A stretch of 64,000 bases of DNA, taken from a bacterium SCSIO 12643 (lineage in GTDB: Bacteria; Bacteroidota; Bacteroidia; Flavobacteriales_G; Salibacteraceae). Within the stretch, counting starts at the first letter, position 1; the number at the start of each line of letters is the position of its first letter. Under the pieces are notes generated by a model, which saw only the letters and a program-made list of their open reading frames with translations, was not told where the DNA came from and ran no database searches. Shown one piece after another: positions 5,173 through 46,729 of the stretch. Position numbers and translations under genes: made by a program. The stretch covers positions 3,906,001-3,970,000 of the forward strand of contig CP073750.1 of the NCBI GenBank assembly GCA_024398135.1, given 5' to 3'.

Positions 5173-6381
5173 TTAATTCAATTTGTACTTCTTGCGATTA
5201 AAGTGGTCGGTACGTTCAAAATCTCGTTTCAACTGTTCGAGATTTAATCTCCACTGTAATGTACTTTGAGGAAATCCTCTTCTTGCTATTAAATATTCTA
5301 TATCTGTATCAATTTTATCTGCGAGTTCATCTACTACTGAGTTAAATAGTTCAGGAGAAAAAGCCTGATACCACATTTCCTGACGTTCATGCAATCTGGC
5401 TTCAAATTCAGGATTATCTTCCAAAAGGATTTGAAGAATTTCCGATATATGATCCTCTTTGTATTCCATTTCTGGTAAAATCGGATTTTTCGTTCTAAAA
5501 GCGGCTAAGTCCAAATCGTATAATAAGAACCTAAATTTACTTCCGTTTACGCTATATGCACGTGCATTATTATGCGGCCAGTCAATATTACCCACATAGT
5601 CTTCAAATATGATGTAATCTAAAAAGTTATCAATATCCAGGAGTTGCTCTAAAGCATAAGCATCTTCGTTTTTGATCGCACGGATCAGAGATTCCGCCAA
5701 AGCCAGATCTCCTTCACGGTACTCCAGGTTTTTATTGGAGTCATCCATCTTAATCCTAGTGATCGAACTGGTATCTGTTTGGAGTAGATGAGATATGGCC
5801 ACTCTGTCGTTTTCGGTTCTGATATTGTGCAAACCGTAGTATTTACCATTGATAAAAACATGTAGTGGTTTGCCGTATTTTAGCTCTAAATCCATTCCTG
5901 CGCGAAGTGCAAATTCAGAATAAGCCAGATCCTTCAACATTGTAATACCAAAATCTTGCCCGGAATTTCTTAACCGAACATTTTGGATCAACTCTAAATG
6001 ATCAGAAGGGGCAACAGCCTGCGGAGTAATCACTTTTAAAGAACCATTATTAAATGGGGTGTCAAATGTGATTCCCAAAGGTTTCATATCCGCAGCAGCT
6101 GAACCCGCTCCTTTAATCTCAATATTTCCTGTCTTTTCAAATAGTAATTCACCCTTATAGTTATAGTATACCACATCGGTAGACACTTCAATGTCCTGAT
6201 TAAATCTCCGCATCATATCATCCAATCTGGTTGGGTCAGCAATAATATGTATGCGATCAAGTGACGTTTCCATGGTTTGCGGTTGTAAAGTTTCCCAACT
6301 CGGAAGGTCTTCATCCACATCTATTTTAGTACAGCTGGCTATAACCAACATTAAACTTGATATAAGTATCCAATGTCTCAT
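5173..6381 (-). CDS. CotH-kinase-family lipoprotein
   Basis: The 402-residue product starts with a lipoprotein signal (L-V-I-A-S-C, Cys near 16), so it is probably anchored in a membrane facing the periplasm or the surface. The CotH protein-kinase fold is supported by G-K-Y-Y-G-L-H-N-I-R-T-E near 185, the asparagine-rich motif N-I-D-W-P-H-N-N-A-R near 265, and the metal-binding-like L-L-Y-D-L-D-L. CotH proteins are atypical kinases known from spore coats and are also common in Bacteroidota. Its start overlaps the stop of the upstream barrel gene (ATGA) and the Pycsar-effector-like gene follows ten bases downstream. Confidence 0.85.
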   Translation of the reverse strand: MRHWILISSLMLVIASCTKIDVDEDLPSWETLQPQTMETSLDRIHIIADPTRLDDMMRRFNQDIEVSTDVVYYNYKGELLFEKTGNIEIKGAGSAAADMKPLGITFDTPFNNGSLKVITPQAVAPSDHLELIQNVRLRNSGQDFGITMLKDLAYSEFALRAGMDLELKYGKPLHVFINGKYYGLHNIRTENDRVAISHLLQTDTSSITRIKMDDSNKNLEYREGDLALAESLIRAIKNEDAYALEQLLDIDNFLDYIIFEDYVGNIDWPHNNARAYSVNGSKFRFLLYDLDLAAFRTKNPILPEMEYKEDHISEILQILLEDNPEFEARLHERQEMWYQAFSPELFNSVVDELADKIDTDIEYLIARRGFPQSTLQWRLNLEQLKRDFERTDHFNRKKYKLN

Positions 6382-37112: not shown

Positions 37113-38519
<1,407 letters not shown>

Positions 38520-38535: not shown

Positions 38536-39180
38536 CTAGCGCTTAAATTTGAAAGCGCTAAATAATTCGGTCCACCATGATTTCTTTGATGTGGCCTCTG
38601 TCGTAAGTTGTGTCAGCGTTTCACCGATTTCATTGCCATCCGACTTTAAAGCATCATATAATGAGGGTCTTTTGGGAAAAGATAACTCTTCCAGTCGAAC
38701 GTGATCCTTATCCATACCTTGCTGTATTACATTTAGCAAAACTGTTGCTTCTTCCCTGATGTATTGCTGTGTATCATCAGGAACCGGCATATGATACGAT
38801 TCACATTCTTCAACCATAAAATAACAATGCGATAAGTGCTCCAGAAAACTATAATCGTTGTAGGTCCACAAATTATACAATTGATCCAATATCCTAAGTA
38901 AATCGGTAGATTCTAACTGTAAACTTTCAAGCAACATCTTGATCTTATACATCTGAAAATGATCTTGACCCAAAGTATCAGTAAGTAATTTCTCCAACGC
39001 ATATTTCACACCTTTCTTAGAATAATTGATAGCATATAATTCTAGTACAAATGCATCTTTTGTAATTTGATCGGATAATTCTTCATTTTCATATAACCAT
39101 GATTCAAAAGCCTTAACTGACAGCGAACCGTGGGTTACCGCTACTATTTTTTCTATCAGGTATTTTGGTATTGTTTTCAT
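38536..39180 (-). CDS. Hypothetical protein cotranscribed with rtcB
   Basis: The 214-residue protein is helical, soluble and acidic, without a signal peptide or a family I know. It starts the rtcB operon. A perfect 6-7-6 palindrome sits 36 bases upstream of its ATG, identical but for one spacer base to one in front of the WYL-dioxygenase gene. A partner in RNA repair or in sensing is an inference from this position. Confidence 0.75.
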   Translation of the reverse strand: MKTIPKYLIEKIVAVTHGSLSVKAFESWLYENEELSDQITKDAFVLELYAINYSKKGVKYALEKLLTDTLGQDHFQMYKIKMLLESLQLESTDLLRILDQLYNLWTYNDYSFLEHLSHCYFMVEECESYHMPVPDDTQQYIREEATVLLNVIQQGMDKDHVRLEELSFPKRPSLYDALKSDGNEIGETLTQLTTEATSKKSWWTELFSAFKFKR

Positions 39181-39215
39181 GATTTCTCATTTACAAGACA
39201 AATGTCTATCTGCTC

Positions 39216-39234
39216 TACGCAATCTTTTTGCGTA
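39216..39234. promoter_or_regulatory. Palindrome shared by the rtcB operon and the WYL gene (copy 1)
   Basis: TACGCA, seven bases, TGCGTA: a perfect 6-7-6 palindrome 36 bases before the start of the rtcB operon. Copy 2 at 40038 has the same arms and differs by one spacer base, in front of the WYL gene. The pair fits a dimeric regulator controlling both units. Confidence 0.6.
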
Positions 39235-39260
39235 ATAAAAAAGATTTATAACTATTCCTC

Positions 39261-39424
39261 CTTTCCTTTTTTGGTTGCACAAAAAACGAAACCAAAAAAG
39301 TGCACTCTTCCCAAGACATTTTTAGCTTCACTGCGCTACGCTAAAACCGAAGCTTAATGGCTAAAATAGCTCCAAGGCTTCGCTATTTCTTAACGCCATT
39401 AACTTCTATGATGCGGGAAGAGCA
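39261..39424. repeat. Dispersed repeat R1, copy 1
   Basis: A ~164-base intergenic repeat found again at 49812-49974 with the same order of words (CTTTTTT run, ACGAAACCAAAAAAG, TTTTTAGCTTCACT, ACCGAAGCTTAATG, CTCCAAGGCTTCGC). A fragment is also seen at 51516-51544. It carries no gene. Confidence 0.8.
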
Positions 39425-39542
39425 TCTTTATCCTATTTAGAATTACTTTGTAAAAATGGCTTTCAATTGATCCATAACCTGTGAACCACCGGACTGCTTT
39501 GCACTATTTTCATTAGATCATTTTTACAAGTGATCAACTTTT

Positions 39543-39614
39543 GATGGAATGGATTTTAAGTCCAACCGCTGGATTAAAAGTCCAGTGCTCTACCCACTGA
39601 GCTACATACGCATC
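39543..39614 (-). pseudogene. tRNA-like sequence with Lys(TTT) anticodon arm, decayed T arm
   Basis: The 72-base sequence has a normal D arm (AGCTCAGTGGGTAGAGC) and a perfect anticodon arm CTGGA-CTTTTAA-TCCAG that would read anticodon TTT. The T arm lacks the TTCRA consensus and shows a second anticodon-like loop instead, and the acceptor ends pair for only about four bases. It could be a decayed tRNA-Lys or a tRNA-like decoy. Confidence 0.55.
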
Positions 39615-39616
39615 AT

Positions 39617-39679
39617 GTATGGCGGGAATCGAACCCACGACACCTGTCTTGCTGCTTTATCCACTGAGCTATCTCATAC
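39617..39679 (-). pseudogene. tRNA-like sequence lacking a normal anticodon arm
   Basis: A D arm of the usual kind (TAGCTCAGTGGATAAAGC) and a perfect T arm (GTGGG-TTCGATT-CCCGC) flank only about 15 bases where anticodon arm and variable loop should be. The terminal GTATG/CATAC pair gives a five-base acceptor-like stem. It cannot decode codons. Confidence 0.5.
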
Positions 39680-39785
39680 TGAGAGAGGGATTCGAACCCT
39701 CGTAAACAAGAAATGGTAGTTAACATTGAAGTCATATAGAAGCATATCGCAAAACATTGCTCTACGACACTACTGCGCTATTCAG
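39679..39785 (-). pseudogene. tRNA-like sequence with enlarged middle part
   Basis: A tRNA T arm (GAGGG-TTCGAAT-CCCTC) and a D-arm-like start (TAGCGCAGTAG...AGAGC) are separated by about 55 bases with no clear anticodon arm; the ends pair CTGA/TCAG. The long middle may be an insertion in a former tRNA or a separate structure. Confidence 0.45.
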
Positions 39786-39865
39786 AAACGCTAGTCTGGT
39801 CTACATCAAATCAACCATCAACTGTCTTTAGTGCTTAAACACCATATTTTAAAGAACATTTGTTG

Positions 39866-39938
39866 TGGAACAGAAAGGATTCGAACCTTTATCTCTGGAT
39901 TTTCAATCCAGCGCATTGACCAACTTTGCTACTCTTCC
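39866..39938 (-). tRNA. tRNA-Phe(GAA), slightly unusual
   Basis: The 73-base minus-strand sequence folds into a tRNA: a 7-bp acceptor (GGAAGAG/CTGTTCC, one G-G mismatch), an anticodon arm CTGGA-TTGAAAA-TCCAG with anticodon GAA, and a T arm AAGGT-TCGAATC-CTT type. The D arm (GCAAAGTTGGTCAATGC) is atypical and CCA is not encoded. It may be functional, or the least decayed of the four tRNA-like sequences here. Confidence 0.65.
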
Positions 39939-39949
39939 GTTTTACTTTG

Positions 39950-39981
39950 CCCCACCATCTTTCCGCTTTCAGATAGTGGGG
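39950..39981. other. 11-bp hairpin upstream of tRNA-Phe
   Basis: CCCCACCATCT (39950-39960) and AGATAGTGGGG (39971-39981) pair with one mismatch around a ten-base loop. It sits between the tRNA-Phe and the WYL promoter region and has no T-tract on the plus strand. It could be part of a processed array transcript or a terminator. Confidence 0.5.
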
Positions 39982-40037
39982 ATTTTACGCTCGATAACTG
40001 CTTTATCAATTAATCTGCGACAAAGGTTCAGCACTAC

Positions 40038-40056
40038 TACGCAGTCTTTTTGCGTA
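40038..40056. promoter_or_regulatory. Palindrome shared by the rtcB operon and the WYL gene (copy 2)
   Basis: TACGCA, seven bases, TGCGTA: the same palindrome as at 39216, differing by one spacer base, here ending 39 bases before the start codon of the WYL-dioxygenase gene. Confidence 0.6.
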
Positions 40057-40095
40057 ATGAAAAATTAATTCTACTTTTATCAAAATTTCTTTAAA

Positions 40096-41817
40096 ATGCC
40101 TGCAAATAGAAACGCCCTAGTTCGATACAAAACCATTGACAAATGCCTCCAAAACCGCTATAGACAATGGACTTTAGACGATTTAATTGATGCCTGCTCG
40201 GATGCTTTATATGATCATGAAGGAATTTTAAAAGGTGTAAGTAAAAGAACCATTCAGGCCGACATTCAATTAATGCGCAGTGATAAATTGGGTTACAATG
40301 CCCCCATCATTGTTATTGATAAGAAATATTACACATACGAAGACAAGGATTATAGTATTACCAATATTCCGATCACGGATCAAGATCTAAACCAGCTTAA
40401 CGAAACCATAGAATTTTTAAGACAATTCAAGGGATTCTCTCACTTCAAGGAATTGGACGGAATGGTGCAAAAACTGGAGGATCATGTTTATGCACAAAAA
40501 ACCAATCAAAAACCGGTTATTGATTTTGAAAAGAATGACAACCTTAAAGGACTCGAGTTTTTAGATGAACTGTATCAGTCTATTATCAAAAAGAAGGTGA
40601 TTAAGGTAACTTATCAATCTTTTAAAGCCAGAAATGCCAGCTCATTCGACTTCCACCCTTACCTATTGAAAGAATTCCGCAACAGATGGTTCTTATTTGG
40701 CTCTAAAAACGGGAGAACAGACTTATTGAGTTTAGCATTAGATCGGATGATTCAGATTGAAAAAAGTGAATCCAGATATCGAGAACATCCTCCCGAATTT
40801 GATCCCAGCACTTATTTTAAAGATTCTATTGGGGTTTCAGTTTCTCCGAATCTTCAACCGGAAAGGGTTATGCTGTATATCACCAGGAAACACGCGCCTT
40901 ATGTTCTCACCAAACCTTTTCATTCTTCGCAAAAACTTATAGAACAAGATGATTATGGAATTACCATTTCATTAGATGTGCAGCATAATTTTGAATTGGA
41001 AAAAGACATTTTGGGTTTAGGTGATGGAGCGAAAGTTATTGCTCCAAGAAAACTAAGACGAAACATTCAGGATAGATTGCAAGGCGGATTAGACCTATAT
41101 CATACGGAAATTAGTAAATCCGGATTAGACAAACTCATCAATAAACTAAGGCATAAAGGCTTCGATACTTTGAATTATGTTTACTCCAAAAGAGAACTCA
41201 GACATATTTCAAGACAAATTGATAAGTACTTCGCACAAACAGATGAACCTAAATTTGGAAAAAGAACACTGTTAAAAGACATCCCAAACCTTAAACCTTT
41301 ACTGATCAATAAAAACTTACTCAGAATTGTACGTTCTATTGATCCTGATGCATTTATCACCAAAGCCATTTACTTTGACAAGCCTGCAGATGCAAACTGG
41401 TATGTCACCTGGCATCAGGATGTGCCCATAAATGTGAATCAAAAAATGGATCTTGAAGGCTATTCCGGTTGGACCTACAAAAAAGACATCCATAGCGTGT
41501 GTCCTCCCGAAGAGATCTTAAAAAATACATTTACCATCCGAATTCATTTGGATGATACAGACAGTCGGAATGGCGCCTTAAAAATTGTCCCGGGATCGCA
41601 AAACAAACGACTTTCAGATACGGAGATCAAAACTATTACTGAAAATAGTGTTCCTTATCTGTGCGAAGTACTTGCCGGTGGAATTCAATTGATGAAACCA
41701 CTGTTATTACATTCATCTTCTAAATCCGAAAAACAAAAGAGACGTGTCATTCATTTAGAATTTTCTTCATCTGAACTTCCAGACGGTCTGGAATGGCTGG
41801 AACGAGAGCGTATTTAA
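40096..41817 (+). CDS. WYL-domain regulator fused to a phytanoyl-CoA-dioxygenase-like domain
   Basis: The first ~350 residues form a transcriptional regulator: an N-terminal HTH-like part (1-95) and a WYL domain (about 170-245, with Y-L-L-K-E-F-R-N-R-W-F-L-F-G and A-L-D-R-M-I-Q). The last ~200 residues resemble a PhyH-type 2-oxoglutarate/Fe(II) dioxygenase: W-H-Q-D near 440 (the HxD pair), R-I-H-L-D-D-T-D-S-R-N-G-A-L-K-I-V-P-G-S near 490, a distal L-L-L-H-S, and the R-R-V-I-H-L-E-F arginine. WYL domains bind nucleic acids or nucleotide ligands. It is divergent from the rtcB operon across the tRNA-like array, and one palindrome lies before each unit. Confidence 0.85.
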   Translation: MPANRNALVRYKTIDKCLQNRYRQWTLDDLIDACSDALYDHEGILKGVSKRTIQADIQLMRSDKLGYNAPIIVIDKKYYTYEDKDYSITNIPITDQDLNQLNETIEFLRQFKGFSHFKELDGMVQKLEDHVYAQKTNQKPVIDFEKNDNLKGLEFLDELYQSIIKKKVIKVTYQSFKARNASSFDFHPYLLKEFRNRWFLFGSKNGRTDLLSLALDRMIQIEKSESRYREHPPEFDPSTYFKDSIGVSVSPNLQPERVMLYITRKHAPYVLTKPFHSSQKLIEQDDYGITISLDVQHNFELEKDILGLGDGAKVIAPRKLRRNIQDRLQGGLDLYHTEISKSGLDKLINKLRHKGFDTLNYVYSKRELRHISRQIDKYFAQTDEPKFGKRTLLKDIPNLKPLLINKNLLRIVRSIDPDAFITKAIYFDKPADANWYVTWHQDVPINVNQKMDLEGYSGWTYKKDIHSVCPPEEILKNTFTIRIHLDDTDSRNGALKIVPGSQNKRLSDTEIKTITENSVPYLCEVLAGGIQLMKPLLLHSSSKSEKQKRRVIHLEFSSSELPDGLEWLERERI

Positions 41818-41845: not shown

Positions 41846-44800
41846 TTAATTTTTCACAATATTAAAAAGTGATGTTACCCCATCCATCTCCACTTGAATA
41901 AAATACACTCCTCTTTCTCCGATTAATTCTAAACTTAATTTATCCGTATTATTTCTTTGTATCGGTCCCATCACTTGCTGACCAACACCGTCAAACACAT
42001 TTATTTCAATATTTTGATAAACTCTCCCTAGATCTATGGTCACATCCCCTCCAGTCGGATTAGGATACACATTAAAGTTAGGATTAAATACAAAGTCCTT
42101 GATCCCTACATTTGTTAAAGTAACACAAGATGATGTGTCTGTACAACCATTCATTGTTATTTCTACAGCATAATTGCCACTTTGCGTTGCCGTATAACTA
42201 AAATTAGTTTGATCAGGAATCATTGTATAATTTGAAGAACAATCTAACCATTGATAGCTTGCGCCAGTATGATTCGCACTAATCGTATTTCCGTTTATAG
42301 TTAAAGATGTATCAATTGTAGTAATCGTTAAGCTTAATGTTACGATACTATCACACCCTAAAGTATTTGTTAAAGTATCTTGATATACACCTGATATAGT
42401 CCAGGTTTTACCACTTACTGAGGTATAACTATTACATGCCGTTTTCGTATCCGATCCTGTGGTTGATTGATTTATTGTGAGCGTCAGAGTCACAATGCTA
42501 TCACATCCCATAGTATTCGTTAAAGTATCCTGATATACACCAGATGTCGTCCAGGTTTTACCACTCACAGAGGTATAACTATCACAAGCTGTTTGAATAT
42601 CCACTCCAGACGTTGACTGATTTATCGTTAGATTAAGGGTTATAATACTATCGCAGCCATTCGCATTCGTCAAGGTATCCATTGCAGTATTATTATTCAT
42701 AGAATAGGTCACACCATTGATCCACGTATAAGCATCACATGCGATTTGAGTATCTACTCCGAATGTTGAATTATTGATCGTTAGATTCAACGTAACTATA
42801 CTATCGCAACCATTGGAGTTAGTTAGGGTGTCCTTTGCCGTGTTATTATTAGCTGTATAAGTAATACCATCTATCCATGTATAGGAACCACAAGCATATT
42901 GAACATCAACACCAGTTGTTAAATGATTTATGATAAGTGTTAAAGTCACTATACTATCGCATCCCAAAGCATTTGTTAAAGTATCTTGATATACACCTGA
43001 TGTAGTCCAAGTTTTTCCACTTACTGAGGTATAACTATCACATGCAATTTGATTATCAAACCCTGTTGTTGAATTATTTATCGTGAGTATCAAAGTCACA
43101 ATACTATCGCAACCATTCGCATTCGTTAAAGTATCCTGGTAAACACCTGATGTAGTCCAGGTTTTACCGCTCACTGAGGTATAACTATCACAAGCCGTTT
43201 GAATATCGACTCCGGTCGTTGATTGATTTATCGTTAGATTAAGTGTTATAATACTATCACAGCCATTCGCATTCGTCAAGGTATCCATTGCAGTATTATT
43301 ATTCATCGTATAAGTTACACCATTGATCCATGTATAAGCATCACAGGCTATTTGAGTATCTACTCCGAATGTTGGACTATAGATCGTTAGATTCAATGTA
43401 ACTATACTATCGCAACCATTGGAATTAATTAGCGTATCCTTTGCAGTATTATTACTAGTCGTATATGTCACCCCATCTATCCAGGTATAAGAACCACAAG
43501 CGGATTGAACATCCACTCCTGTTGTCAGATGATTAATCATTAAGCTTAATGTTACGATACTATCACATCCCAAAGCATTTGTTAAAGTATCCTGATATAC
43601 ACCTGATGTAGTCCAGGTTTTACCACTTACTGAGGTATAACTATCACATGCCGTTTGATTATCTATACCAAATGTAGATTGATTTATCGTGAGTGTTAAG
43701 GTTACAATACTATCACATCCCAAAGCATTTGTTAAAGTATCTTGATAAATACCTGATGTAGTCCAGGTTTTACCGCTCACTGAGGTATAACTATCACAAG
43801 CTGTTTGAACTTCAACTCCGGTCGTTGACTGATTTATCGTTAGATTAAGTGTTATAATACTATCGCAACCATTCGCATTCGTCAAAGTATCCATTGCAGT
43901 ATTATTATTCATGGTATAGGTCACTCCATTGATCCACGTATAAGCATCACATGCGATTTGAGTATCTACTCCGAATGTTGGATTATTGATTGTTAGATTC
44001 AATATAACTATACTATCGCAACCATTGGAATTAATTAGTGTATCCTTTGCTGTATTATTACTTGTCGTATATGTCACCCCATCTATCCATGTATAACTAT
44101 CACATGCAATGATATCATCAACAACCAGATCGGAGTTAATTGTTAAATTCAACATAACCACACTATCGCAACCATTGGAATTAATTAATGTATCCTTAGC
44201 AGTAAAATTACTGGAAGTATAGGTAATTCCATTAATCCAGGTATAACTATCACAAGCCACATGCGTATCCGTAGCAGTATTGGAATTAACTATAGTGAGA
44301 TTAAGAGTTACTACACTATCGCACCCCAGTACGTTGGTTAAGGTATCTAATGTAGTGAAATTATTGGAGGTATAGGTTACTCCATTTATCCAGGTATAGC
44401 TATCACATGCTGTGATGACATCCACCCCTGTATTCGCATTAATGGTTAGATTTAACGTGATCACACTATCACACCCAGAAGTATTGGTCATAACATATGT
44501 TGCCGTATTATTTGAAGCGTAATAAGTAACCCCATTAATCCAGGTATAACTACTGGAACAAGAATATTGCGTATCTATAACGGAATCAACACATAAAACT
44601 TTGACCAAAAAACCATCATTAAGACCGCCATGAATATTCTGATGTCCATTTATAGCCATACTGGAAGTAGACGATGTTATTCCAGTCATATATAAACTTC
44701 CATAGTCTCCAATGGCACAATACGGATATCCCTCATCACCAATTCCTCCATAATAGGAGCCCCACAATCTTCCCCCTATAGAATTAAATTTAACTAAAAA

Positions 44801-46729
44801 AATATCATCAAAACCGCCAGAACTTAAAGTATCCTGAAAACCTGCATGAGCAATATTGGTATCTGATCTGGTCATCCCAGCCATGTATACATTCCCGGAA
44901 TTATCAACTGCACAAGAATAACCATGATCCGCATGATTCCCTCCATAATAAGTCCCCCATTTTCGAACTCCAGATGAACTAAATTTAACTAAGTATCCCT
45001 CTGAATATCCCATTCCTCCCATAAACTGATTTTGGAAACCTCCATACGCTATATTGTTTCCCGAATATGTAGATCCTGTTAAATAAACGTTTCCAGAATC
45101 ATCCGAGGCACAAAAGGTTCCATAATCAATTCCTGTCCCACCATAATAAGTAGCCCAAACTCGTCCACCTAAACTATTAAATTTCACCAAAAAAGCATCA
45201 CTCAGGCCTCCTCCATGTGTATTTTGCATCCCTCCTGATGCAATGTTGGTAGTTGACCTTGTAGTTCCTACCAAATACACATTCCCAGAATCATCTACTG
45301 AACAAAGTCCTCTATCTTCCTCATCTGTTCCACCATAATAAGTACTCCATATACGGGTTCCTGAAGAACTAAATTTAGCCAAAAAAGCATCTCCAAACAA
45401 TGGTCCACCATTAAATGAATTATCATAACCACCACTAGCTATATTGGATGTGGACTGAGTAATACCAGATATATATACATTCCCTTGATTGTCAACACTA
45501 CTAGAGTTTATCACATCTATGGTATTTCCTCCATAATACGTTCCCCACTGTCGCACTCCTTGTGTATTAAACTTTACTAAAAAAGCATCAATATAACCAC
45601 CACCATAAGTGTTTTGGTGTCCTCCAATAGCTATACTTGAGTTCGAGTTAGCATACGATCTGGTGGAACCTGCCAAATACACATTCCCAGAATCATCTAC
45701 TGAACAGGTGTATCCAACTTCTCCTAAATTACCTCCATAATACGTTCCCCACAATCGCACTCCTTGTGCATTAAACTTCACTAAAAAAGCATCACCACCA
45801 TTTAAATATACATTTTGATGTCCACCAGCCGCTATATTGTTTGTAGAAGTAGTATTTCCTGCCATATATACATTCCCAGAATCATCTACAGCACAAGCAT
45901 AACCTCGTTCTCCTATAAGTCCGCCATAATAAGTAGCCCAACCAATTACAGGATCTATTATTAACAATTCCGTTTTGTTATACTCTGGAATTTTAAAACT
46001 AATCTCATCCTTATCTAATTCAAAATAAGTTAACAACTTTCTATCTCCCTGGTAACTTATTGGGTGGTCTTCATAAACTTTACCCATACGATTGATCATC
46101 GTTAATGAACCTGTATCATCTAATTTAATTTGTTCGGCATCAATTACTTTTATCTTGATCTGATTTGGATTACCTCCGGGATGAACAATAAAGTCATACT
46201 TAATTACCCCATTCTTACAATAAATAACCCAATCAATATCTGGATAAATGTCATGATAGGTGATTTCAGCATAGGAATGTACATTTAACGCATTAAGCTT
46301 GTAATATTGATTATAATCTTTACTTTTTCCTTCCATGGTAATGATCGCATTAGGGTTGGCACCTACTAACTTAAAGTCCATTCGGTAAGTTTCCAAACTT
46401 ATTTCATCAGTCAAGTCTTCCATTAACTCAGGTAGTATACCCTTTTGGAATTTATCCAATGATTCCGTGTTATCCGAATATTGAATTTTATTAAATTGAT
46501 AGGCAATTCCTGTGGATAATAGAAAAACAGACAGGTCACCGCTTTGATATATAAACTTCACTCTGGAAGCATCCTCCCCTGTTACCTGTCCTTTGTTTTC
46601 TTCAAAACCGAAATGTTGGTTATCAATATATTGTTGTATTTCCTCTAACTTAGAAGGTGCATTCTCATTATCTACGGCTAAGAGAGTAATGGAATATAAA
46701 AAGAGTATCAGTATACCTAGGGATTTCAT
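41846..46729 (-). CDS. Giant T9SS-exported protein: DUF7948, SBBP repeats, 15 Cys-Asp repeats
   Basis: The 1627-residue protein has a signal peptide (1-17), a DUF7948-like N-terminal domain (about 35-265), seven SBBP-type beta-propeller repeats (about 266-715, each with Y-Y-G-G and D-D-S-G-N-V-Y), fifteen ~50-residue repeats of the A-C-D-S-Y-T-W / G-C-D-S-I-V-T-L type (about 720-1469), an Ig-like segment, and a T9SS type A sorting domain (about 1550-1627). It is probably a large cell-surface or secreted adhesin-like protein. Its repeats are arranged in a higher-order pattern (AABB three times). The gene is monocistronic. Confidence 0.92.
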   Translation of the reverse strand: MKSLGILILFLYSITLLAVDNENAPSKLEEIQQYIDNQHFGFEENKGQVTGEDASRVKFIYQSGDLSVFLLSTGIAYQFNKIQYSDNTESLDKFQKGILPELMEDLTDEISLETYRMDFKLVGANPNAIITMEGKSKDYNQYYKLNALNVHSYAEITYHDIYPDIDWVIYCKNGVIKYDFIVHPGGNPNQIKIKVIDAEQIKLDDTGSLTMINRMGKVYEDHPISYQGDRKLLTYFELDKDEISFKIPEYNKTELLIIDPVIGWATYYGGLIGERGYACAVDDSGNVYMAGNTTSTNNIAAGGHQNVYLNGGDAFLVKFNAQGVRLWGTYYGGNLGEVGYTCSVDDSGNVYLAGSTRSYANSNSSIAIGGHQNTYGGGYIDAFLVKFNTQGVRQWGTYYGGNTIDVINSSSVDNQGNVYISGITQSTSNIASGGYDNSFNGGPLFGDAFLAKFSSSGTRIWSTYYGGTDEEDRGLCSVDDSGNVYLVGTTRSTTNIASGGMQNTHGGGLSDAFLVKFNSLGGRVWATYYGGTGIDYGTFCASDDSGNVYLTGSTYSGNNIAYGGFQNQFMGGMGYSEGYLVKFSSSGVRKWGTYYGGNHADHGYSCAVDNSGNVYMAGMTRSDTNIAHAGFQDTLSSGGFDDIFLVKFNSIGGRLWGSYYGGIGDEGYPYCAIGDYGSLYMTGITSSTSSMAINGHQNIHGGLNDGFLVKVLCVDSVIDTQYSCSSSYTWINGVTYYASNNTATYVMTNTSGCDSVITLNLTINANTGVDVITACDSYTWINGVTYTSNNFTTLDTLTNVLGCDSVVTLNLTIVNSNTATDTHVACDSYTWINGITYTSSNFTAKDTLINSNGCDSVVMLNLTINSDLVVDDIIACDSYTWIDGVTYTTSNNTAKDTLINSNGCDSIVILNLTINNPTFGVDTQIACDAYTWINGVTYTMNNNTAMDTLTNANGCDSIITLNLTINQSTTGVEVQTACDSYTSVSGKTWTTSGIYQDTLTNALGCDSIVTLTLTINQSTFGIDNQTACDSYTSVSGKTWTTSGVYQDTLTNALGCDSIVTLSLMINHLTTGVDVQSACGSYTWIDGVTYTTSNNTAKDTLINSNGCDSIVTLNLTIYSPTFGVDTQIACDAYTWINGVTYTMNNNTAMDTLTNANGCDSIITLNLTINQSTTGVDIQTACDSYTSVSGKTWTTSGVYQDTLTNANGCDSIVTLILTINNSTTGFDNQIACDSYTSVSGKTWTTSGVYQDTLTNALGCDSIVTLTLIINHLTTGVDVQYACGSYTWIDGITYTANNNTAKDTLTNSNGCDSIVTLNLTINNSTFGVDTQIACDAYTWINGVTYSMNNNTAMDTLTNANGCDSIITLNLTINQSTSGVDIQTACDSYTSVSGKTWTTSGVYQDTLTNTMGCDSIVTLTLTINQSTTGSDTKTACNSYTSVSGKTWTISGVYQDTLTNTLGCDSIVTLSLTITTIDTSLTINGNTISANHTGASYQWLDCSSNYTMIPDQTNFSYTATQSGNYAVEITMNGCTDTSSCVTLTNVGIKDFVFNPNFNVYPNPTGGDVTIDLGRVYQNIEINVFDGVGQQVMGPIQRNNTDKLSLELIGERGVYFIQVEMDGVTSLFNIVKN
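42323..44572 (-). repeat. Coding tandem repeats in the giant surface protein
   Basis: Fifteen imperfect ~150-base units lie in tandem. Units 1-5 are of type A (T-W-I-N-G-V-T-Y) and 6-7 of type B (S-V-S-G-K-T-W); then the A-A-B-B block recurs, making three blocks of about 600 bases each (units 4-15). The blocks are more alike than adjacent units, which points to recent duplication of whole blocks. Confidence 0.88.

Follow-up and report, generated by a model that had tools for sequence, protein, structure and literature searches.

We propose that a locus in the Bacteroidota bacterium SCSIO 12643 is part of a WYL-controlled tRNA-damage regulon, and that a structured RNA encoded there is a Y-RNA-like mimic of the tRNA elbow; from sequence comparison we give this reading a probability of about 0.6. 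The locus lies in a stretch of 64,000 nucleotides (nt), hereafter the window, which covers positions 3906001-3970000 of the 4.12-Mb single-contig genome (G000; its genus mates are G001 and G002). About 900 bases, holding one ordinary tRNA-Phe and tRNA-like stretches, separate a leftward unit, composed of rtcB and a gene for a 214-amino-acid (aa) protein, from a rightward gene for a WYL-WCX regulator fused to a PhyH-type dioxygenase domain. This divergent arrangement had been described in an earlier sequence-only reading of the window, and was confirmed by the open reading frame (ORF) coordinates and by Pfam, tRNA and Rfam scans, although rtcB itself falls outside the span of 38536-41817 which that reading gave to the locus. 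The features on which the proposal turns are as follows.

37113-38513, minus strand: rtcB, RNA ligase RtcB (466 aa; Pfam RtcB PF01139, 1.1e-34)
39199-39202, minus strand: TTTG (-7-like) box of the rtcB operon, 13 nt beyond the operator (operator-spacing count)
39216-39234, no strand assigned: operator copy 1, TACGCA-N7-TGCGTA, before the rtcB operon (genome pattern search)
39567-39701, minus strand: core of the twin permuted tRNA-like RNA (covariance model R1, 130.7 bits, a training member of that model)
40021-40024, minus strand: TTTG (-7-like) box of the array, 13 nt beyond operator copy 2 (operator-spacing count)
40038-40056, no strand assigned: operator copy 2, separating the array from the WYL gene (genome pattern search)
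40096-41817, plus strand: WYL-WCX regulator fused to a PhyH-type dioxygenase domain (573 aa; Pfam WYL 4.2e-12, WCX 1.7e-9, PhyH 2.2e-6)

The palindrome TACGCA-N7-TGCGTA has exactly two copies in the 4.12-Mb genome, both at this locus, and the reversed control pattern has none. The claim that each transcriptional unit is preceded by it holds as regards the sequence, which is the same in both places, but two copies serve three units, the WYL gene sharing the divergent one. Related loci were drawn from 149 searched genomes, 71 of which have a match to the WYL-PhyH protein. The clade set comprises those nearest to the window's WYL part (approximately 45% identity or more), 25 of them with the WYL start present; L055 was dropped because its WYL gene is truncated by the contig end, and L049 and L127, being the same place, were counted once. 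With at most one mismatch, TRCGCA-N7-TGCGYA was found in 25/25 loci of this clade and in 0/13 loci with distant WYL regulators. It lies less than 200 bp from the WYL start in 22 of the 25, and 0.76-0.88 kb away in L053, L054 and L059. Across 23 clade loci (436 kb) there were 36 exact and nine one-mismatch sites, as against none and one, respectively, in one shuffle, and in 22 whole genomes 52 exact sites as against four of the reversed control pattern, with one to six exact sites per genome in 21 of the 22. The palindrome is, by prediction from these counts, a real operator of this WYL clade.

The operator also has a preferred distance from a putative promoter element. TTTG stands at +13 in 31/58 sites and at +14 in 15, every other offset occurring six times or fewer, and 27 of the 31 sites with the +13 spacing have an A located 3 nt before the TTTG. 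This box fits the consensus of the -7 box of Bacteroidota promoters. Both boxes in the window face left (minus strand), one toward the array and one toward the rtcB operon. Since the spacing is fixed, it suggests an activator site; alternatively, a repressor may cover the -33 region. Among the lone operators examined, some were located 34-95 bp before genes for RtcB (three genomes), RlaP, a Hen1-type methyltransferase and a T4-type RNA ligase. At L129:3339-5758 the Hen1-type methyltransferase and T4-type RNA ligase genes each lie 37-38 bp behind an exact copy. At L126:8279-9007 an operator was observed 71 bp before the gene for a bpX4 protein of the MoxR-vWA-beta-propeller ternary systems.

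RtcB, slipin, TROVE or RlaP was present in the examined flanks of 23/25 clade loci (RtcB 17, slipin 10, TROVE 5, RlaP 3) and of 0/13 distant-WYL controls, three of which (L064, L065 and L070) have short flanks. A set of 80 WYL-PhyH loci from named organisms, 71 with at least 5 kb of upstream sequence, gave a similar picture; it includes two training genomes of the RNA model (L181 is G001 and L183 is G002), and L241 and L251 agree in length with contigs of G012 and G124. RtcB, slipin, RlaP or TROVE was found in 58 of the 71 (RtcB 52, slipin 32, RlaP 17, TROVE 8). Enough sequence was available at 76 of the named loci; an operator lies no more than 320 bp away in 55 of them, and 70 contain an exact copy anywhere in the locus. 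Conservation of the layout, by which the sequence-only reading had proposed to be judged, is thus borne out insofar as WYL, the palindrome and RtcB or other RNA-repair genes recur in many Bacteroidota; tRNA or tRNA-like genes are kept in some of these loci only.

The nearest named relatives of the window's WYL-PhyH protein are from uncultured Flavobacteriales. In 78 aligned fusions H440 is present in 78, D442 in 75, H539 in 72 and R549 in 77; these are presumably the catalytic HxD...H...R residues. TROVE was detected in 6/22 WYL-clade genomes, in five of the six beside the WYL gene, and TROVE/Ro60 is absent from the window genome and both genus mates. As regards a phage origin, viral contigs scanned with the WYL-PhyH protein yielded no relative; the permuted RNA itself was not sought there. 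Elsewhere, five more distant WYL regulators (L066-L069 and L072; 34-38% identity) all lie head to head with a tRNA-Arg(acg) gene, and a Flavo-1 RNA (Rfam, 63.4 bits) was observed immediately before the WYL gene at L053:8351-8441.

The tRNA-like stretch between the two operators is, on comparative evidence, a single structured RNA that combines two circularly permuted tRNA-elbow modules with an anticodon-type hairpin. The sequence-only reading had counted three abnormal tRNA-like sequences here, and they are indeed not normal tRNAs; rather than three pieces they make up a single RNA with two permuted T-arm/D-arm modules plus anticodon-type hairpins. Its parts, in the order in which they would be transcribed, are given below.

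39845-39857, minus strand: boxA-like GTTCTTTAAAATA (sequence reading, motif scan)
39744-39797, minus strand: two upstream hairpins, the loop of the first, GTTTCTGAATAGC, being common to relatives (by eye, motif scan)
39685-39701, minus strand: T-arm of module A (T-arm search, 7-locus alignment)
39672-39684, minus strand: capped acceptor hairpin of module A (alignment, module parser, covariation in 17 RNAs)
39654-39669, minus strand: D-arm of module A (alignment, module parser)
39622-39638, minus strand: T-arm of module B (T-arm search, alignment)
39605-39621, minus strand: capped acceptor hairpin of module B, with two-sided changes in relatives at 6/6 pairs (alignment, covariation)
39587-39602, minus strand: D-arm of module B (alignment, module parser)
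39569-39585, minus strand: anticodon-type stem-loop with loop CTTTTAA, the loop letters being unconserved in relatives (alignment)
39516-39535, minus strand: 3' hairpin GATC...GATC, the stem varying in relatives (GGTCA/TGACC, CATC/GATG; by eye)

T-arms 61-71 nt apart, a spacing too short for two tRNAs, recur in related loci. Eight such pairs were noted, and with L053 left out of the alignment as a different type, seven training loci remained. All seven share the order T-arm A, capped acceptor A, D-arm A, T-arm B, capped acceptor B, D-arm B and anticodon-type hairpin. When a module parser was applied to 17 RNAs it returned 38 T-arm-like matches, three of which are chance or extra; of the 34 modules expected, the capped acceptor is present in 33, of which 32 also possess a D-arm bearing GG, and L118 has a third full module. 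The Rfam tRNA model matches the window RNA at 39544-39607 (38 bits) and 39616-39679 (20.3 bits). In many members the RNA is longer than the core, since motifs recur in its flanks: GTTCTTT upstream in 9/16 other members (10/17 with the window), a hairpin loop GTTTC...AT[AG][GA]C in 13/17 (motif scan), and GATACCG or GATATCG no more than 300 nt downstream in 9/17.

Near the operator a second odd type of RNA was encountered, with a closed acceptor, D-arm and T-arm and an insert of roughly 50-120 nt replacing the anticodon arm, giving a tmRNA-like outline (L058:5165-5323, L053:5385-5509 and 5692-5806 by Rfam; L034:12101-12400 by eye only).

Pairing in the seven-RNA alignment amounts to 94.9% of cells as against 74.8% in shuffled alignments and 32-50% when the registers are slid; two-sided changes occur in 24/34 pairs. 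With 17 RNAs the values are 97.7% and 72.2% (161 two-sided cells as against 47; 28/34 pairs changed on both sides), and with 32 RNAs from named loci 97.0% and 70.1% (303 as against 91); these two alignments were fitted to R1, the covariance model built from seven genomes, and are thus biased toward it, which the seven-RNA alignment is not. In none of 500 shuffles did paired cells, two-sided changes or the covariation score reach the values observed. The covariation is strongest in the capped acceptor hairpins.

At 80 bits or more, R1 matched 17/395 genomes of the class. Two of these, L116 (tandem Ala, 88 bits) and L120 (tandem Lys, 81.5 bits; 53 in another scan), were set aside as ordinary tandem tRNAs, which leaves 15, ten of them non-training. 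In a draw from the phylum 16/395 genomes passed E 1e-24, ten of them new, so that the RNA is present in a few percent of sampled genomes. Matches of 72 bits or less at five examined places (L121-L125) coincide with ordinary tRNAs, and since real members exist at 69.7-73 bits (L222, L236, L257 and L258), counts made at 80 bits are lower bounds. Lacinutrix, Winogradskyella and Chryseolinea are among the genera with both the RNA and a WYL-PhyH gene.

A slipin gene lies just downstream of the RNA, on the same strand, in 10/10 and 10/10 non-training hits of the two genome scans, false hits removed. Among the 80 named WYL-PhyH loci the RNA was detected at E 1e-20 in 32 (two training genomes among them), 29 of which have slipin 288-543 nt downstream; L213, L223, L233 and L248 depart from the pattern in having slipin and no RNA at this threshold. 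The examined stretches of the ten non-training loci of the class scan contain RtcB in six, the operator in five and WYL in three. Because slipin is found in all of these first ten loci and WYL in only three, the link of the RNA to slipin is, by this count, tighter than its link to WYL.

The closest known relative in architecture is YrlA (Y RNA, Rfam RF02553), which has the same permuted module of T-arm, capped acceptor and D-arm mimicking tRNA, and the same RtcB neighbourhood. YrlA has one module, however, whereas the window-type RNA has two, and three in L118. No family of Rfam 15 scored above threshold for the permuted RNA, YrlA being the nearest: its model gave 42.9 bits in the window (39559-39667) and best matches of 31.9-51.5 bits in 13/14 related loci with any hit at E of 0.01 or less, all below the gathering cut-off of 69. 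We therefore rejected its assignment to YrlA by Rfam's rule, in view of these scores, the two or three modules and a window genome without Ro. In Salmonella the rsr-yrlBA-rtcBA operon is induced by damaged tRNAs (PMC7790460). DusA and TruB modify YrlA, which binds PNPase via its tRNA-like domain (PMC8394870). The regulator of that operon is RtcR, whereas the candidate regulator here is a WYL protein and the RNA usually stands upstream of slipin. In the RtcR-controlled RtcBA system of Proteobacteria, too, a ligand-sensing regulator induces RtcB when tRNA is broken, but that regulator, RtcR, is a CARF-domain activator (PMC7790460) and not a WYL-WCX protein with or without PhyH. RtcA and RtcR were not among five window proteins scanned with Pfam; no genome-wide search was made.

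A further parallel is the TrcR regulon of Anabaena, in which TrcR represses a 26-tRNA operon and rtcB until translation stress relieves the repression, and the genes with raised expression in the TrcR deletion mutant include one for slipin (PMC10272220). A silent spare tRNA array, rtcB and slipin are likewise under one regulator there, although TrcR is a ribbon-helix-helix (RHH) protein with another binding motif, and the available part of that source makes no mention of a permuted tRNA-like RNA (PMC10272220). As in the Anabaena-type operon, the array in our genome is set apart from a complete housekeeping set (38 housekeeping tRNAs, with a second array at L034); in place of the RHH regulator, a WYL-WCX protein stands on the array side (TrcR itself was not sought genome-wide). 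GOLLD RNA of mycobacterial tRNA arrays is likewise a large noncoding RNA within such arrays (cited in PMC9569102), and no Rfam match to it was obtained in the array region at E up to 10.

The spare tRNAs include one at 39865-39938 (minus strand), a divergent extra copy of tRNA-Phe(GAA) with 65% identity to the housekeeping tRNA-Phe (tRNA and Rfam scans, identity comparison). L034, the second WYL locus of the window genome, carries two RlaP genes and eight tRNAs (ARAGORN); its tRNA-Phe, at L034:11925-11998, has the anticodon AAA rather than GAA. The 38 housekeeping tRNAs form a full set even without the arrays. Nine array tRNAs of this genome were compared with their housekeeping counterparts of matching isotype; identity is 48-73%, and most anticodon loops are retained. 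By this comparison the array tRNAs look like redundant replacements. Up to 20 tRNAs of differing isotypes occur at other WYL loci (L052). In addition, L110 has 20 tRNAs with the permuted RNA and slipin, and L125 has 23 tRNAs beside TROVE, WYL and the operator being absent from the examined stretch of both.

From these elements we propose that a tRNA damage signal would cause the WYL protein to activate the operator-bearing promoters, or to stop repressing them. The regulon would then repair tRNA through its repair enzymes (RtcB, and elsewhere RlaP, slipin, Ro60, Hen1 and T4-type RNA ligase), replace it from the spare arrays and produce the Y-RNA-like tRNA mimic. The signal, the sign of control, the partner of the RNA and the ligand of the WYL protein are all inferred. 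WYL domains have been described as recognising cyclic nucleotides (PMC7824862), and perhaps cleaved RNA is what may be sensed here.

Several observations weigh against this proposal. Thirteen of the 71 named WYL-PhyH loci have none of the repair genes sought (three of these 13 have 8-11 tRNAs and three the permuted RNA), 21/76 have no operator within 320 bp and 6/76 have no exact one at all. Several RtcB matches are distant (25-31% identity), and no RNA-repair family was obtained for the ORFs nearest to the lone operators L128, L131, L134, L135 and L118:16627. Nor do the RNA and WYL always occur together: L110, L112, L113, L117 and L119 have neither WYL nor the operator in the examined stretch. 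A single-sequence fold of the window RNA is no stabler than its shuffles (z -0.62), the support for the structure being comparative. The PhyH domain is unaccounted for by the regulon model, and a cis role of the RNA, as leader of the slipin mRNA, is as compatible with the data as one in trans.

Such a cis-acting 5' leader of a slipin(-rtcB) mRNA, which would gauge the free tRNA pool through an elbow-binding protein that shuts or opens slipin expression once intact tRNA drops, is possible, with the odds somewhat against it. The RNA core lies approximately 250-545 nt before slipin on the same strand in 26/27 RNAs (6/7 training and 20/20 others), slipin is also downstream in 29 of the 32 hits of the named loci mentioned above, and a simple scan detected no intrinsic terminator between the two in 15/16. 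On the other hand, the window genome, with an RNA scoring 130.7 bits, has no slipin match anywhere, and L222, L257 and L258 have the RNA (69.8-73 bits) and no slipin in the examined flank. Because the window genome keeps the RNA without slipin, action in trans is favoured by this comparison, an argument from a single case, possibly one of recent slipin loss, and the three weaker ones. More doubtful still is the idea that the RNA is a sensor of the tRNA pool, its tandem permuted elbows in a slipin/RtcB leader competing with tRNA for an elbow-binding protein. If this were true, loss of intact tRNA would be read directly, coupling membrane-bound slipin, RNA repair and the release of spare tRNAs.

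The sequence-only reading had cast the tRNA-like RNAs as decoys for anticodon nucleases, cut in place of tRNA and reporting the damage to WYL. The anticodon-type hairpins and the location in a repair locus would fit such a bait, which we nevertheless consider unlikely: it is the T/D elbow and capped acceptor that are conserved, module A has no anticodon arm, the anticodon letters vary (TTT in the window, CTT in L044, GAT in L048, GTT in L110 and TCG in L112, by eye), and U33 is missing in some. In Salmonella YrlA fragments were not observed, and the authors of that study suggest that the tRNA-like domain might inhibit the nuclease (PMC7790460). The same variable letters and the lack of an anticodon arm in module A argue against true permuted tRNA genes, the transcripts of which, once cleaved, RtcB would ligate to yield circular or mature tRNA. 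RtcB joins 2',3'-cyclic phosphate to 5'-OH ends, and the order T-arm, acceptor, D-arm, anticodon arm matches that of a permuted tRNA, but the short caps that close the acceptors, many only 3-4 nt long, leave no room for a CCA end and make this very improbable. The least probable account is that tRNA genes of an old spare array are decaying in place, as the sequence-only reading had it in calling the array decayed. Real tRNA arrays do exist at the sister loci L034, L052, L110 and L125, and the modules resemble various tRNAs, some with Leu-like D-arms (by eye). The covariation (7, 17 and 32 RNAs; 0/500 shuffles reaching it) contradicts decay, pairing lost without compensation was not seen, and the same module order is found in several families; for that reason we reject decay in favour of a conserved structured RNA.

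Two further features adjoin the genes described above. The first belongs to the rtcB unit.

38536-39180, minus strand: 214-aa protein encoded between the operator and rtcB, family unassigned

It has no Pfam or NCBIfam match and is absent from both genus mates, and a search for homologues in 60 genomes returned the protein itself and one weak match (E 2.8e-5). The second, at window positions 41846-46729 (minus strand), adjoins the WYL gene; it is an ORF of 1627 aa that abounds in tandem repeats.

Searches of the open-access literature returned no paper whose title or opening of the abstract describes a WYL-controlled regulon of RtcB and tRNA arrays or a slipin-linked permuted tRNA-like RNA; some of the gene neighbourhoods may already have been described in the 2016 RNA repair survey by Burroughs and Aravind. 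With the regulon proposed here, RtcB repair in the Bacteroidota would gain a candidate regulator with a readable operator, and the repair enzymes would be joined to an apparently inducible set of spare tRNAs. To these is added a conserved RNA that contains two or three permuted tRNA elbows and falls below all Rfam 15 thresholds. Since a tRNA array, rtcB and slipin recur under unrelated regulators, WYL here and TrcR in Anabaena, the comparison suggests that a tRNA-crisis programme of this kind is general. In culturable genera such as those named above, the part played by Y-RNA-like tRNA mimics becomes testable. The apparent control of the RNA, repair enzymes and spare tRNAs by one regulator would open a new way to study bacterial survival when tRNA is attacked.

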